A DNA stretch of 32,926 nt, taken from Caenispirillum bisanense (GTDB taxonomy: Bacteria; Pseudomonadota; Alphaproteobacteria; Rhodospirillales; UBA2165). This document shows, one piece after another, positions 6,341-11,816 of this stretch. The first letter of the stretch is position 1. Each line of letters starts with the position of its first letter. Made by a program: the position numbers and the translations under genes. The DNA lies in contig CAMDWJ010000041.1 in the NCBI GenBank assembly GCA_945877815.1, positions 1 to 32,926 of the forward strand, read 5' to 3'. The notes under the pieces were generated by a model. It saw nothing but the letters and a program-made list of their open reading frames with translations. It was not told where the DNA came from and ran no database searches.

Positions 6341-7282
6341 CTACGCCACCCAGAGCGCTTCGGCGGCGGGCAGTTTGCCGATCGCCGAGAGCGGCTCGCG
6401 CCCCGGCAGGTAATATTGCAGGAGGCTGCCGTTGATATCGCGCACGAAAACGCTGCGCCGCGCACCGTGCTCGGTGACGCGTTCGACATCGACGCCCTTG
6501 GCCTTCAGCCTGCGTTCGATATCGTCGAGATCGTTCGGATCGTTCAATTCGAACGCGCCGTGATGTAGACCGGGCGCCACACCCGCGATCGGCGCGAAGA
6601 TCGAGAGACTTTGTTCGCGCAAAGATCCGCCCAGAATGACAAAGGGCGTATCGGGGCCGCCGACCAACGGCGTCAGGCCGACAAGGTCGGTATAGTGGCG
6701 ATAAAGGACCTTGTAGTCCGAGGCGACTAGGGTCGCGTGCGAGGCCTTCTTGGTATGCAACACCGCTTCATGGACGCGCTCGATCGGCGGATCGACCGGA
6801 TAGCAGCTTTCGGCGACGGGCGGCGTCGAGCCCGGCGTCCACTGATTGCGGCCGCGCGCATCGACGTCGCCGGTGCGGCGCTCGCGCCAATTGTCGAGCA
6901 CGTCGGTATAGACCTCGAAGCGATTGCCGTCCGGATCGCGCCCGTAGCAGCAATGCGCGATGTCGGCCGATAAGGTGAAATCGAACTTGAAGCCGTATTC
7001 GGCGATCCGCTCGTAGCCCTTCACCAGCTCGATCTCGTTTTCGAGTTCGAAGGCGAGGTGGTGCAAGCCCGGCGTCTTGCCTTGGCCCTGCGGCGTGTCG
7101 AGATCGAACACGGCGGAGTCGTGATAGGTATTGCCGTTCGAAAGAAAGGCGCCCTTCAGGTCGGTACGGCGATAGACCTCCTGCAAGCCCGCGATGTCAT
7201 TGTGCCATTTGGCGGCGGCGCGCCAGTCGTCGACCCAATAGTTCACATGGGTGAGGCGGCGCGGGCGAAAGATCGGCTCCAT
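6341..7282 (-). CDS. Two-domain VOC protein (extradiol-dioxygenase/glyoxalase superfamily)
   Basis: 313 residues from ATG 7282, with AGGAGAG 5 bases upstream. Two VOC modules are seen: about residues 8-128 and 178-300. In the first, the HHE metal set is present as His12 (LTHVNYWV), His75 (GLHHLAFE) and Glu123 (NRFEVY). In the second, His182 (SHATLVA) and the His of GLHHGAFE remain, but the third position is Gln (SLLQYYLP). Classical extradiol dioxygenases use the C-terminal module, so the likely active site here is reversed. It is the last gene of a three-gene operon, 11 bp after the dehydrogenase. The likely role is ring cleavage or another metal-dependent step in aromatic catabolism; the substrate is unknown. 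Confidence 0.82.
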   Translation of the reverse strand: MEPIFRPRRLTHVNYWVDDWRAAAKWHNDIAGLQEVYRRTDLKGAFLSNGNTYHDSAVFDLDTPQGQGKTPGLHHLAFELENEIELVKGYERIAEYGFKFDFTLSADIAHCCYGRDPDGNRFEVYTDVLDNWRERRTGDVDARGRNQWTPGSTPPVAESCYPVDPPIERVHEAVLHTKKASHATLVASDYKVLYRHYTDLVGLTPLVGGPDTPFVILGGSLREQSLSIFAPIAGVAPGLHHGAFELNDPNDLDDIERRLKAKGVDVERVTEHGARRSVFVRDINGSLLQYYLPGREPLSAIGKLPAAEALWVA

Positions 7283-7293
7283 TTTATCTCTCC

Positions 7294-8355
7294 TCAGATC
7301 AGGCTTTTGCCTTCGAAACGTTTGCGCCAGGCCGGCAGCGCATCGGGGTTGACGACATGGCGGGGGATTTCGCCGCGAAGAGCGGCGAGCGCCGCGTTCG
7401 TCGCCCATTGGATGTTCTGACCCTGTTGGCCGCCGCCGCTGCCGCCGACCATATGGGGCGTCAGCAGAACTTTGTCGCCGAGGCTGAGCAGGGGCGATTG
7501 TTTGGGCACAGGTTCGACATTGAACGCATCGAGTGCCGCTCCGCCGAGGCGGTTCGCCTCCAGCGCGTTATAAAGCGCATCCTCGTCCACCAAAGGCCCG
7601 CGCGCTGTATTGATCAGCAAGGCCGTGGGTTTCATGAGTTTCAGCGAGTCCGTGTCGATCAGCCCGCGCGTTTCCTTATTGAGATCGCAATGTAGTGTTA
7701 CGACGTCGGATTCTTTGAGCAGCGTGTTGAGATCGGTCGGTGTCGCGTTGTGATGCACGAACTTGGATTCGTCTACATAGGGATCGTAGGCGAGCACACG
7801 TACGCGCCACGGTTCCAGCAGATCGGCGAGGCGCGATCCGATGCGCCCCAACCCGACGATGCCGATGGTGATGCCAGCGTAGCCATCCTGACGGCGGCCG
7901 AGAAAGGTGCCGTTCAACTCAGCCTTGCGCCAGCCGCCGCCCCGAACCTCGCGGTCGAGTTCGGGAAGCCGCTTCAGCATCGAGAGCATCATGGCGAAAG
8001 CACCTTCGGCGACTCCGCCCCAATTCGATTCCACCGGCGCATGGGTGACCAGGATCCCCATCTCGGTGCAATCGTCGAGATCGATATCGTCGTAGCCGAT
8101 GTTGTAGCGCGCGATCACGCGCAGATCGGGGAAGGGGGTCAGGAGTTTGCGATCCATCATCAGCCCTTCCATGCGGGCCCCCAGCATGGCCACCGCGCCG
8201 GGACCTTTGGCCTGAAAGGTCGGGAGTGTCGCGCCCAGTGCCGCGCGCCAAGTCGGATCGCCGAACATCAGATCGCAGCCGACGCTTTCCAATTGCTTGT
8301 GAGAGGCGCCGTCCTTGTCGCTCGGGATGTAGACGTAAACTTTGGGCCGCGCCAT
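7294..8355 (-). CDS. D-isomer-specific 2-hydroxyacid dehydrogenase
   Basis: 353 residues. The NAD-binding Rossmann motif GIVGLGRIGSRLA lies near residue 165. The three family catalytic residues are present in order: Arg in NTARGPLVDEDAL, Glu in FNVEP and His in LTPHMVGG. It reduces 2-keto acids to D-2-hydroxyacids or the reverse, using NAD(P), in the cytosol. The start ATG 8355 is one base after the stop of the alpha/beta hydrolase gene (TGA-C-ATG), so the genes are surely co-transcribed. Length and motifs are complete. The operon context (hydrolase, dehydrogenase, VOC protein) points to a catabolic route and not to serine or vitamin B6 synthesis. Substrate unassigned. Confidence 0.9.
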   Translation of the reverse strand: MARPKVYVYIPSDKDGASHKQLESVGCDLMFGDPTWRAALGATLPTFQAKGPGAVAMLGARMEGLMMDRKLLTPFPDLRVIARYNIGYDDIDLDDCTEMGILVTHAPVESNWGGVAEGAFAMMLSMLKRLPELDREVRGGGWRKAELNGTFLGRRQDGYAGITIGIVGLGRIGSRLADLLEPWRVRVLAYDPYVDESKFVHHNATPTDLNTLLKESDVVTLHCDLNKETRGLIDTDSLKLMKPTALLINTARGPLVDEDALYNALEANRLGGAALDAFNVEPVPKQSPLLSLGDKVLLTPHMVGGSGGGQQGQNIQWATNAALAALRGEIPRHVVNPDALPAWRKRFEGKSLI

Positions 8356-8356
8356 G

Positions 8357-9235
8357 TCAGACCCCGATCATCGACATCATCGCATGGTGCAGTTCGCTAT
8401 CGGCATTGGCGAACTCGCGCGACATGGCGAAATGATGTGCGCCGGGCACGACGATCTCGTTGACCGAAAGCCCCGCCGCCTTCCACGCCTTGGCGAAATC
8501 GGCGCTCTGGCGCTTGAACTCGGGCAGTTCGGGCGCGCCATAGCCAATGATCAGGGGGCCGAACGACTTCGGCAGATGAAAGATCGGGCTGTTCCGCTTG
8601 GCCTCGGCTTCATCCATCTTGAGCGCATCATTGGCACCGCCCGGTCCGGCCAATTGCAGCGCCATCATGTCGTAGACGCCGGACATCGCGCATGCACCCT
8701 TGACCACATTTTCCGGCACGCCGTATTTCGCATGCCAACCAGGCATCAGGGTGGTGCCGGTCAGATGACCGCCCGCCGAATTGCCCGAAACGAAAATGCG
8801 GTTCGGATCGCCGCCGTAGCGCGCAATGTTTTTGTAGATCCAGGCAACGGCCGCGCGGACATGATCGACGATGGCGTCGAGCTTAAAAGCAGGCGCAAGC
8901 CCGTAATCAATCGGGACCCAAGTGACGCCTTTCGGCACGATCGCTTCGGCCGAGAAGGCACGCGCGTTCTTGCTGCCCGCCGTCCAGCCTCCGCCATGGA
9001 TGTCGATCAGGACCGGCGCGTTGGCCGTGCTCGCCGGAAAGATGTCGAGCTTCTGGATTTCGGCCTCGCCATAGGCGACGTTGCGCTCGCATTTCAGGGT
9101 GGCGCTGACGCGTTTGCTCTGTTCGGCGTTCCATTGTTGGTAAGCGCCGAGATCGCTCACCGTCGCGGCCGGATTGTATTGGACGGTCAGTTCCTGCGCA
9201 GTGTAGCCACTATAGATTTTATCGGCGTCGGGCAT
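8357..9235 (-). CDS. Alpha/beta hydrolase, kynurenine-formamidase/carboxylesterase-like
   Basis: 292 residues. The oxyanion motif HGGGW is at residues 80-84 and the nucleophile elbow GNSAGGH has Ser153. The catalytic His is probably in GAHHFAM near the C-terminus. The N-terminus (KIYSGYTAQELTVQYNP) resembles arylformamidase-type proteins, but esterase activity is equally possible. No signal peptide, so cytosolic. The start has GGGAGGA 6 bases upstream, in a leader almost identical to that of the TctC-like gene at 1214. It is the first gene of the hydrolase, dehydrogenase, VOC operon and divergent from the glycine riboswitch/glcB unit. Confidence 0.87.
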   Translation of the reverse strand: MPDADKIYSGYTAQELTVQYNPAATVSDLGAYQQWNAEQSKRVSATLKCERNVAYGEAEIQKLDIFPASTANAPVLIDIHGGGWTAGSKNARAFSAEAIVPKGVTWVPIDYGLAPAFKLDAIVDHVRAAVAWIYKNIARYGGDPNRIFVSGNSAGGHLTGTTLMPGWHAKYGVPENVVKGACAMSGVYDMMALQLAGPGGANDALKMDEAEAKRNSPIFHLPKSFGPLIIGYGAPELPEFKRQSADFAKAWKAAGLSVNEIVVPGAHHFAMSREFANADSELHHAMMSMIGV

Positions 9236-9269
9236 GGTTTCCTCCCTGGATATCGTTCTTATCGCGGAA

Positions 9270-9295
9270 GCATGCCTCCCTCGGAGGGGGCGTGC
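9270..9295. other. Strong hairpin in the divergent region before the glycine riboswitch
   Basis: Bases 9270-9279 pair with 9286-9295 (GCATGCCTCC side with the GGGGGCGTGC side, two G-T pairs) around a 6-base loop. No T tract follows on either strand. It would fall in the 5' leader of the minus-strand hydrolase operon, or upstream of the glcB promoter on the plus strand. Its role is unknown. Confidence 0.35.
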
Positions 9296-9348
9296 AATCC
9301 CCGAGACTGCAAGGGTTTTGGCCGAGGTTGATCGCGTTCAAGCACCCC

Positions 9349-9377
9349 TTGCCCGCTCAATAGAACGGCGATACCTT
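9349..9377 (+). promoter_or_regulatory. Candidate promoter for the riboswitch-glcB transcript
   Basis: TTGCCC (9349-9354), 17 bp, TACCTT (9372-9377). The boxes are only fair, but the predicted start near 9384 is just before the first riboswitch helix, as expected for a riboswitch leader. Confidence 0.35.
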
Positions 9378-9395
9378 AAATTGTCCAATTGACGA

Positions 9396-9592
9396 TGCGG
9401 GAGAGTTCGAGGGCGCGTTGCCATCTCGACGCCGAAGGAGCAACCGCCCCGGAAACTCTCAGGCACCGGAACCGTTTCGTCAGGACGATCTGGAGAGAGG
9501 CACCTGAAAAAAGGTGTCCACCGAAGGGGATGTTTGTCCGCAAGGCGCGCGGACGGCAGAAGCTCTCAGGTACCGTGACAGAGGGGGCGCTG
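9396..9592 (+). promoter_or_regulatory. Tandem glycine riboswitch in the malate synthase leader
   Basis: Two glycine-aptamer cores are readable. Aptamer I (about 9396-9498) has GGGAGAG, CGCCGAAGGAGCAA, AACTCTCAGGCACCGG and CTGGAGAG. Aptamer II (about 9500-9592) has CACCGAAGGGG, AGCTCTCAGGTACCGTGACA and GAGGGGG. They are joined by the usual short linker, with a CACCT/AGGTG stem at 9501-9515. A hairpin GAACCGAA/TTCGGTTC (9595-9602 with 9605-9612) follows, with no T tract. The glcB ribosome site GGGGGA at 9635-9640 lies about 22 bases beyond it, so control of translation is more likely than termination. Tandem architecture implies cooperative or tertiary-contact glycine sensing. Known targets are mostly glycine cleavage or glycine export genes; here the target is malate synthase G. 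Confidence 0.93.
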
Positions 9593-9644
9593 GGGAACCG
9601 AAGGTTCGGTTCGAAGGCGATGCTTGTCTATCACGGGGGAAACT

Positions 9645-11816
9645 ATGAGCGGCTTAAACCATGGCCTGCGGGTCGCGCCGGTTCTTGCTGAACTGATCGA
9701 AAAGGATATCGCGCCCGGAACGGGAATCGCGCCTGATGCCTTTTGGGCGTCTTGTGCGGCGATCTTTACCGATCTCACGCCACGCCTGCGGGCGTTGCTG
9801 GACAAGCGCGATGCGCTGCAGACCAAGATCGATGCGTGGCACCGAGAACGCAAGGGCCAGCCGATCGACGCCGCCATCTACAAGAAATTCCTGATCGAGA
9901 TCGGGTACTTGTTGCCGGAGGGTGGCGCGTTCGCCATCAATACTTCGAAGGTCGATCCCGAGATCGCCGAGATCGCGGGGCCGCAGCTCGTCGTTCCCGT
10001 CACCAACGCGCGCTATGCGTTGAATGCGGCGAATGCACGTTGGGGCAGCCTGTACGACGCGCTCTACGGCACCGATGTGATCTCCGAAGACGGGGGCGCC
10101 GAAAAGGGCAAGGGCTATAATCCGGTGCGCGGCGCAGCAGTGATCGCCTGGGCTGCGGGTTTCCTGGATGAAGCCACACCATTGGCGCGGGGGAAACATG
10201 CCGACGTCGTCTCCTACAGGATCGTGGACGGACGCTTGGTCGCCGATTTCAAGGACAGCTCGGAAACCGCGATCGCGAGCCCCGAGAAGTTCGTTGGTTT
10301 CGTGAAGGACGACACAGGCGAGCTGTCGGCGATCCTGGTGCGCAATAACGGACTGCACATTGAAATCCAGATCGATCGTACCCACCTGATCGGTCGGGAT
10401 CATGCGGCGGGTGTGAAGGATGTGGTCCTTGAGGCAGCGATCACGACCATCCAGGATTTGGAGGATTCCATTTCGGCAGTCGATGCCGAGGACAAGGTGC
10501 TCGCCTATCGCAATCTGCTGGGGCTGTTTAAAGGCGATCTCGCGGCGAGCTTCGAAAAGGGCGGATCGAAGATGGTCCGTAGCTTAGAGCCGGACCGCAT
10601 CTATACCGCACCCGACGGCAAGCAACTGACGCTGGCCGGTCGCAGCCTTCTGCTTGTGCGCAATGTTGGCCACCATATGTGGACCGATGCGGTGACGCTG
10701 GGTGGCAAGCCGGTGCCCGAAGGTATACTTGATGCGATGGTGACCGGCCTGATCGCGCTGCACGATCTTAAAAAATCGAGCGGCCCGCGCAACAGCCGCG
10801 CCGGCAGCTTCTATATCGTGAAGCCCAAGATGCACGGGCCCGAGGAGGTCGCTTTCACGGCAGAGATTTTCAGCCGCGTCGAAAGCATGCTGGGCCTCGC
10901 CCGCGCGACCCTCAAAATGGGCATCATGGACGAGGAGCGGCGCACCACGGTGAACCTCAGGGAATGCGTGCGCGCGGCGGCCGACCGCGTGGTCTTCATC
11001 AATACCGGTTTTCTCGACCGCACCGGCGACGAGATCCATACCTCGATGGAAGCCGGACCTTTCGCGCGCAAGATGCAGCTCCGCAAGGAACCCTGGATCG
11101 GTGCCTACGAAGATTGGAATGTCGATATCGGACTCGCCGCCGGTTTTCGCGGCAAGGCGCAGATCGGCAAGGGCATGTGGGCGATGCCGGACGAGATGAA
11201 GCAGATGATGGACGCCAAGATCGCCCATCCCAAGGCGGGCGCCAACACGGCCTGGGTGCCGTCGCCGACCGCGGCGACCCTGCACGCGGTCCATTATCAC
11301 CGGGTCAGCGTCGCCAACCGCCAACAGGAATTGATGACGCGCGCGCGCGCCAGCCTCGACGCCATCCTGACGATCCCGCTGCTCGGCGGCGTCAACCTCT
11401 CCGACGCAGAAGTACACGCCGAACTCGACAACAACGCGCAAGGCATCCTCGGTTACGTCGTGCGTTGGATCGACCAGGGCGTCGGCTGCTCCAAGGTGCC
11501 GGACATCGATGATGTCGGCCTAATGGAGGACCGCGCGACCTTGCGCATCTCCAGCCAGCATATCGCCAACTGGCTGCACCACGGCGTGTGCACCCAGGGT
11601 CAGGTGATGGAGACCTTAAAGCGCATGGCCGCAGTGGTCGATCGTCAGAATGCGAATGACCGCGCCTACAAACCGATGGCGCCGAATTTCGACGCCTCGA
11701 TCGCCTTCCTGGCCGCGTGCGATCTTGTCTTCAAGGGCAACGCGCAGCCCAACGGCTATACCGAATTCGTCCTTCACGACCGCCGCCGCGAGGCGAAGGC
11801 TGCGCAGGTGCGTTAA
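9645..11816 (+). CDS. glcB: Malate synthase G
   Basis: 723 residues, the same length as the well-known enterobacterial enzyme. It condenses glyoxylate with acetyl-CoA to malate in the cytosol (glyoxylate/glycolate use). Family marks are present: [18 protein letters not shown] with the catalytic-region Arg, [41 protein letters not shown], and near the end [27 protein letters not shown] with the Cys and the general-base Asp region. ATG 9645 is chosen over an upstream TTG because GGGGGA precedes it by 4 bases. No glcDEF or isocitrate lyase is in the window. The upstream tandem glycine riboswitch suggests that glyoxylate made from glycine is the relevant substrate supply. Confidence 0.97.

Follow-up and report, generated by a model that had tools for sequence, protein, structure and literature searches.

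The stretch of DNA that we analyzed, referred to here as the window, is a 32,926-base contig of the Caenispirillum bisanense genome, a 3.98-Mb assembly in 84 contigs that is rated 100% complete. The window was scanned with cmscan against 4227 Rfam families, and the sole matches at or above the gathering score were two adjoining matches to the glycine riboswitch family (RF00504) on the + strand, with a single gene, malate synthase G (glcB), directly 3′ of them. Aptamer I scores 61.9 bits (E 1.1e-10) and the core of aptamer II scores 41.4 bits (E 2.7e-5), compared with an RF00504 gathering score of 32 bits; in a search of the whole genome the match to aptamer II is longer. The gene, which is the next one on the + strand, is identified by two equivalog models, NF002825 (1223 bits against a cut-off of 565) and TIGR01345 (1077.7 bits against 989.15), and 53 bases lie between the end of aptamer II at 9591 and the ATG at 9645. 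A preliminary description of this locus, made by inspection, had recognized both aptamer cores with glcB 53 bp downstream, and both points are borne out; the element is also where it was placed (9396-9660), except that those limits start 8 bases late and end just inside glcB. Judged from its sequence, this is a genuine and ordinary glycine riboswitch, which would be expected to bind glycine. The features of the leader are as follows.

9388-9484, + strand: glycine aptamer I (RF00504; cmscan, 61.9 bits)
9431-9464, 9432-9463 and 9433-9462, + strand: three G-C pairs at the base of P3 in aptamer I, the pocket as mapped in this analysis
9447-9450, + strand: CCCC tract within the aptamer I P3 loop, a candidate to pair with G9584-G9587 in a pseudoknot (from the sequence; kept in the sister species)
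9480-9591, + strand: glycine aptamer II (RF00504; 46.6 bits in the genome search), with its core at 9489-9582 (41.4 bits)
9489-9492/9579-9582, + strand: P1 of aptamer II (Rfam alignment)
9573-9582, + strand: switching strand, the 3′ part of aptamer II, complementary to 9627-9636 (free fold; identical in the sister species)
9583-9587, + strand: G tract right behind the aptamer II core (GGGGG here, TGGGG in the sister species)
9595-9612, + strand: hairpin between the switching strands, 7 pairs and a loop of 4 (folding; no terminator-like site)
9627-9636, + strand: complement of the switching strand, covering the first two G of the Shine-Dalgarno (SD) sequence (free fold)
9635-9640, + strand: SD-like GGGGGA, 4 bases 5′ of the ATG (read from the sequence)
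9645-11816, + strand: glcB, malate synthase G, 723 aa (NF002825, TIGR01345)

Neither a terminator-like site nor a sigma-70-like promoter site was found in 9200-9760, and because no promoter-like site was found there, the transcript start is an assumed one. The left neighbor of glcB (8357-9235) is on the opposite strand and is transcribed away from it. This neighbor is the nearest part of a set of - strand frames at 6341-9235, divergent from glcB, that includes an alpha/beta hydrolase, a D-2-hydroxyacid dehydrogenase, and a protein of the glyoxalase/dioxygenase superfamily; frames similar in length and order, compared unaligned, flank glcB in the sister species. The set looks like a catabolic cluster unconnected with the riboswitch. 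On the 3′ side of glcB, a 184-aa frame at 11969-12523 matches the dienelactone hydrolase profile (PF01738, 21.6 bits) in its C-terminal part alone and is possibly a broken or mis-started gene.

Glycine sensing and glyoxylate genes in the genus

A search of the whole C. bisanense genome with RF00504 gave no match beyond the pair at glcB; the same search on 14 control genomes gave matches in Bacillus subtilis and Caulobacter vibrioides. The gcvT gene (identified by model, at position 163552 of contig C1) lies 64 bases behind a metH-like frame and is followed by gcvH and gcvP frames, with metH, gcvH and gcvP recognized by eye. When the gcvT locus was scanned in each genome of the genus together with 1500 bases of flank, no Rfam family matched at E values up to 1. 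Taking the genome search and the gcvT scan together, no glycine sensor other than the riboswitch before glcB was detected in C. bisanense.

Malate synthase does not appear to work in a classical glyoxylate shunt here, because the isocitrate lyase model (TIGR01346) has no match over its cut-off in either C. bisanense or the other genome of the genus (G081, 90% complete; hereafter the sister species), the best match reaching 54.5 bits against a cut-off of 275.9. The same model passes its cut-off in 13 of the 24 genomes of the family. Eight weak TIGR01346 matches were seen in C. bisanense, four of them within 24 kb of contig C1 (29889-53732) and the rest at C1:144833 and on contigs C3, C11 and C30; three of the eight were inspected, and methylisocitrate lyase is the nearest identity for each, at scores below its cut-off. 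Genes that could supply or use glyoxylate are present. Both GlcE (300.7 bits, cut-off 284) and GlcF (386.2 bits, cut-off 333) pass in C. bisanense, and adjoining them is a GlcD-like gene that stays below both of its cut-offs, 678.6 against 897 for NF008408 and 524.2 against 567.9 for TIGR00387, the latter a cut-off passed by none of nine genomes searched. An aminotransferase is closest to the L-aspartate-glyoxylate aminotransferase BhcA (432.1 bits, cut-off 650), and the sister species holds a similar one, as recognized by eye. Matches to the glycine oxidase ThiO in C. bisanense are all below the cut-off, and the best of them is a D-amino acid dehydrogenase.

The simplest reading of this picture, which draws on gene content only, is that glyoxylate, derived at least partly from glycolate, would go either to glycine or to malate and that glycine would decide between them; glycine may indicate that glycine synthesis has no need of glyoxylate. 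The preliminary description had instead taken the riboswitch to imply a flux from glycine to glyoxylate. With GlcDEF-like and aminotransferase-like genes present and ThiO matched only below the cut-off, such a flux is possible, but it is not required because control at the branch point explains the wiring equally well. The metabolic account to which that flux belongs has glycine serving as a carbon source from which a transaminase or oxidase makes glyoxylate, with the riboswitch inducing malate synthase so that this glyoxylate is assimilated; it is possible but doubtful. It fits the lack of an isocitrate lyase match over the cut-off in both genomes of the genus and the presence of a glyoxylate aminotransferase-like gene; however, aminotransferases of the BhcA-like kind run chiefly towards glycine, the ThiO result points to a D-amino acid dehydrogenase, the glycolate oxidase-like genes are an alternative source of glyoxylate, and the glycine cleavage genes provide the ordinary route for excess glycine.

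A predicted helix that competes with aptamer II reaches the Shine-Dalgarno sequence

In the free fold of the leader, 9573-9582 (CCGUGACAGA) is paired with 9627-9636 (UCUAUCACGG) through 9 of 10 possible pairs, with one C-A mismatch between the segments 9573-9578 x 9631-9636 and 9580-9582 x 9627-9629. We refer to this pairing as the OFF helix. Bases 9579-9582 are common to one strand of the OFF helix and to the 3′ side of aptamer II P1 in the Rfam alignment, so the OFF helix and P1 are mutually exclusive. The helix covers just two of the five G bases of the SD sequence. The same helix appears in the free fold of the sister species, and the rest of the two folds differs; both free folds reproduce the two aptamers incompletely. 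Forcing both aptamers to form gives -90.9 kcal/mol compared with -123.0 kcal/mol for the free fold, a cost of about 32 kcal/mol in a model that includes neither the ligand nor tertiary contacts. For the aptamer II strand against the SD window, RNAduplex gives -15.8 kcal/mol in C. bisanense, a value equalled or bettered in 95 of 5000 dinucleotide shuffles of the window, and -17.2 kcal/mol in the sister species, equalled or bettered in 120 of 5000.

We conclude that the element is probably a translational ON switch for malate synthase G, turned on when glycine is plentiful, and the conclusion draws on the helix that reaches the SD sequence, on features of the aptamers, and on a mechanism described in Neisseria gonorrhoeae. 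In the absence of glycine, the 3′ strand of aptamer II at 9573-9582 would pair with 9627-9636 and block the ribosome-binding site. In its presence, aptamer II, aided by aptamer I, would retain 9573-9582, the site would be free, and glcB would be translated. As described in a 2026 study that includes mutants (PMC13104608), the tandem glycine riboswitch of N. gonorrhoeae works in a comparable manner: without glycine, aptamer 2 pairs just 5′ of the start codon and sequesters the ribosome-binding site, and glycine releases it. That switch controls gcvT and gcvH rather than glcB, and the likeness drawn here is one of mechanism. According to the same source, ON-type switches are marked by three G-C pairs in the pocket of aptamer I and by C and G tracts, located in P3b and behind aptamer II, respectively. 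Three G-C pairs are present in the aptamer I pocket as we map it, along with a C tract and a G tract that could form the candidate pseudoknot.

Predicted pairing of this kind recurs in gcvT leaders of the order

RF00504 is found in 215 of 297 sampled genomes of the order Rhodospirillales, and the best-scoring 30 loci of that search have a gcvT motif in the frame behind the riboswitch in 27 cases; two of the other three loci end before the gene, and one (L010) lacks the motif. At L010 (G211:C25:102457-105545), a seemingly shortened second aptamer is followed by a frame that by eye resembles L-serine dehydratase in the place of gcvT. We took the 27 leaders, excluding the other three loci, together with those of two genomes of the C. 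bisanense family (G168 and G199) in which the riboswitch is placed before a gcvT gene, and set start codons with a minimum spacing. In these 29 gcvT leaders, pairing of the aptamer II strand to the SD window of the same leader has a mean energy of -14.55 kcal/mol, compared with -13.11 kcal/mol when strands and windows are swapped (5 of 20000 permutations). The count is 30 of 20000 for 21 dereplicated leaders, from which similar windows were removed, and 0 of 20000 when the two glcB leaders are added to the 29; since related species are not independent, these counts are not exact probabilities. Pairing energies among the gcvT leaders range from -8.3 (L012) to -28.2 kcal/mol (L026). The match between the C. 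bisanense strand and its window is not unique because better foreign pairings exist: at least 5 of the 29 gcvT leaders have an SD window to which the strand pairs more strongly than to its own, and 1 of the 29 foreign strands beats its own strand at the C. bisanense window. The gcvT leaders thus resemble the glcB leader in having the same tandem aptamers with the 3′ strand of aptamer II pairing to the SD window, but in gcvT leaders the pairing is often made by GGUUCC-like bases after CAGG, whereas the glcB leader uses the bases that come next (CCGUGACAGA).

This evidence also bears on other ways in which the switch could act. Control of transcription, with the leader ending transcripts at an intrinsic or Rho-dependent terminator, is unlikely. 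The stable hairpin at 9595-9612 between aptamer II and glcB would suit it, and the tandem glycine switch of B. subtilis has been studied by transcription termination according to PMC13104608. However, 9200-9760 has no terminator-like site, the hairpin lacks a T tract and lies in the predicted OFF helix as its loop region, and the OFF pairing extends to the SD sequence, with similar pairings seen at SD windows in gcvT leaders. The suggestion in the preliminary description that control is probably on translation is therefore upheld, given the competing helix at the SD sequence, the hairpin without a T tract, and the lack of a terminator-like site. Its remark that this would be less usual for a tandem form is not: a 2025 survey describes riboswitch platforms in Pseudomonadota as predominantly translational (PMC12452182), and the N. 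gonorrhoeae switch is itself a translational tandem (PMC13104608). An OFF switch, in which glycine would reduce malate synthase, is quite improbable. Sequence by itself leaves the direction unfixed, but pairing that reaches the SD sequence needs P1 of aptamer II to be open rather than closed, and the three G-C pairs of aptamer I and the C and G tracts are of the ON type as described in PMC13104608.

Conservation in the sister species and the family

Both aptamers are present in the sister species (C26:34617-34820), followed by a glcB match from 34876, and the two glcB proteins are 81% identical. The switching strand is identical at 11 of 11 columns (9572-9582), and the SD side is identical at 13 of 14 (9627-9640), compared with 35 of 44 for the linker between them and only 36 of 49 for the flank just 5′ of the riboswitch. 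All 9 pairs of the OFF helix are unchanged, P1 of aptamer I is maintained despite several changes, and one linker hairpin pair differs at both of its bases between the species, from A-U to G-C at 9596-9611. Because the switching strands are invariant between the two genomes, covariation cannot test them in glcB.

RF00504 matches are found in 4 of the 24 genomes of the family, namely the two of the genus and the two (G168 and G199) with the riboswitch before gcvT, and the other 20 have none. In G199 (assembly completeness 78%, contamination 6%), the tandem riboswitch on contig C114 is followed by a gcvT frame that is only 158 aa long and seems to be the start and end of the protein joined together; a full-length gcvT lies elsewhere (contig C6), and the covariance model used in the survey below finds no riboswitch at that locus. 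It is very improbable that the glcB element is a relic of a gcvT operon that no longer regulates glcB, which would agree with the gcvT riboswitches in two genomes of the family and with the 20 genomes lacking RF00504, given that both aptamers, P1 of aptamer I and the OFF helix have been kept despite 19% divergence of the glcB protein and a flank identical at only 36 of 49 columns.

Survey of glcB leaders

For glcB leaders we used a covariance model, R1, in place of a pattern of the conserved core. R1 recovered 9 of 9 riboswitch loci outside its training set, an easy control because several of the held-out loci are close relatives of training sequences, and it mostly overlooks aptamer II. In the order, 127 of 297 genomes match the malate synthase G model, 105 of them over the cut-off. 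From order genomes outside the family we took 80 leaders of 700 bases, comprising all 61 over the cut-off that belong to families other than f1 and f29, 11 from the 29 genomes of f29, and 8 partial matches that hold the N terminus; the family itself supplied 21 loci, 18 of which have at least 250 bases upstream. With R1, a riboswitch lies before glcB in 2 of the 98 usable leaders of the order, and both are of this genus. The survey of related glcB leaders that the preliminary description had suggested thus shows both aptamers recurring in the sister species and nowhere else among these leaders. None of the 11 leaders surveyed from the 29 f29 genomes has a riboswitch before glcB by R1. Genomes of f29, G029, G047 and G112 among them, have four RF00504 matches each, apparently representing two tandem switches.

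In the sample of the class, the malate synthase G model matches 149 of 386 genomes, 96 of them over the cut-off. Outside the order, there were 102 leaders (30 loci and 72 stretches), 99 of which have at least 250 bases upstream; the upstream length of the 761-base stretches is fixed by how they were cut. One of the 99 (L325) has a riboswitch by R1, at 66.6 bits. It comes from a family with genomes of 1.2-1.3 Mb and AT-rich leaders that is probably SAR11, and R1 finds no riboswitch in the other three sampled genomes of that family that bear glcB. At L325, the Rfam search gives a single aptamer even at E values up to 1, and a second core is visible by eye. A further set of 80 named loci, 78 with at least 250 bases upstream and partly overlapping the sampled genomes, has none with a riboswitch. 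Six weak R1 matches of 13.6-18 bits were treated as chance.

We also considered whether glcB and its riboswitch were imported together from SAR11. This was rejected because the C. bisanense glcB is up to 73% identical to those of relatives outside the genus, compared with 59% to two probable SAR11 genes.

Discussion

A glycine riboswitch before glcB is not a new finding, having been reported in 2007. Kazanov et al. found a tandem glycine riboswitch before glcB, mostly in SAR11; in their metagenomic data glcB was the second most frequent glycine riboswitch target, at about 20%, and 78 of 94 fragments were assigned to Pelagibacter (PMC2211319). A later paper repeats this result and places 324 glycine RNA sites with glycine metabolism, glycine transport and serine metabolism (PMC3766115). 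Pelagibacter ubique is described as having one riboswitch before glcB and another before gcvT (PMC2704228), and the glcB mechanism has been termed exclusive for SAR11 (PMC5069720, citing Tripp et al. 2009, whose title calls the SAR11 system glycine-activated). Our search of the literature, which mostly lacked subscription papers, recognized no earlier report of a glycine riboswitch with malate synthase outside SAR11. The target is rare and already described, and it occurs here in a lineage said not to have it.

The system in Candidatus Pelagibacter ubique and SAR11 and the one described here share the riboswitch class, the tandem form and the glcB target (PMC2211319; PMC2704228; PMC5069720). 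They differ at gcvT, where SAR11 carries a further glycine riboswitch (PMC2704228) and our searches of the present genus detected none. The present genus also belongs to a different order, the Rhodospirillales; its 4-Mb genome has no isocitrate lyase over the cut-off, and its glcB most resembles the glcB genes of its own family. The same wiring in a 4-Mb genome of another order argues against the claim, as worded in PMC5069720, that it is exclusive to SAR11.

A translational ON switch would probably serve to apportion glyoxylate between two uses at a metabolic branch point. Under glycine shortage, glyoxylate would remain available for transamination to glycine; once glycine is sufficient, glyoxylate and acetyl-CoA would be converted to malate. 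Taking the lines of evidence together, we tentatively propose, as a conjecture, that a glycine switch for malate synthase may have arisen at least twice in the Alphaproteobacteria, that in this genus it may have replaced glycine control of glycine cleavage instead of adding to it, and that, without isocitrate lyase, glycine may gauge how glycolate-derived glyoxylate is split between glycine and malate.

In gcvT leaders of the order, aptamer II and the SD window pair in a species-matched way, which suggests that a mechanism of the Neisseria type is general. Since the sensor lies, as far as searched, only at glcB and isocitrate lyase has no match over the cut-off, the genus is an uncomplicated one in which to ask what information glycine carries at the glyoxylate branch point.
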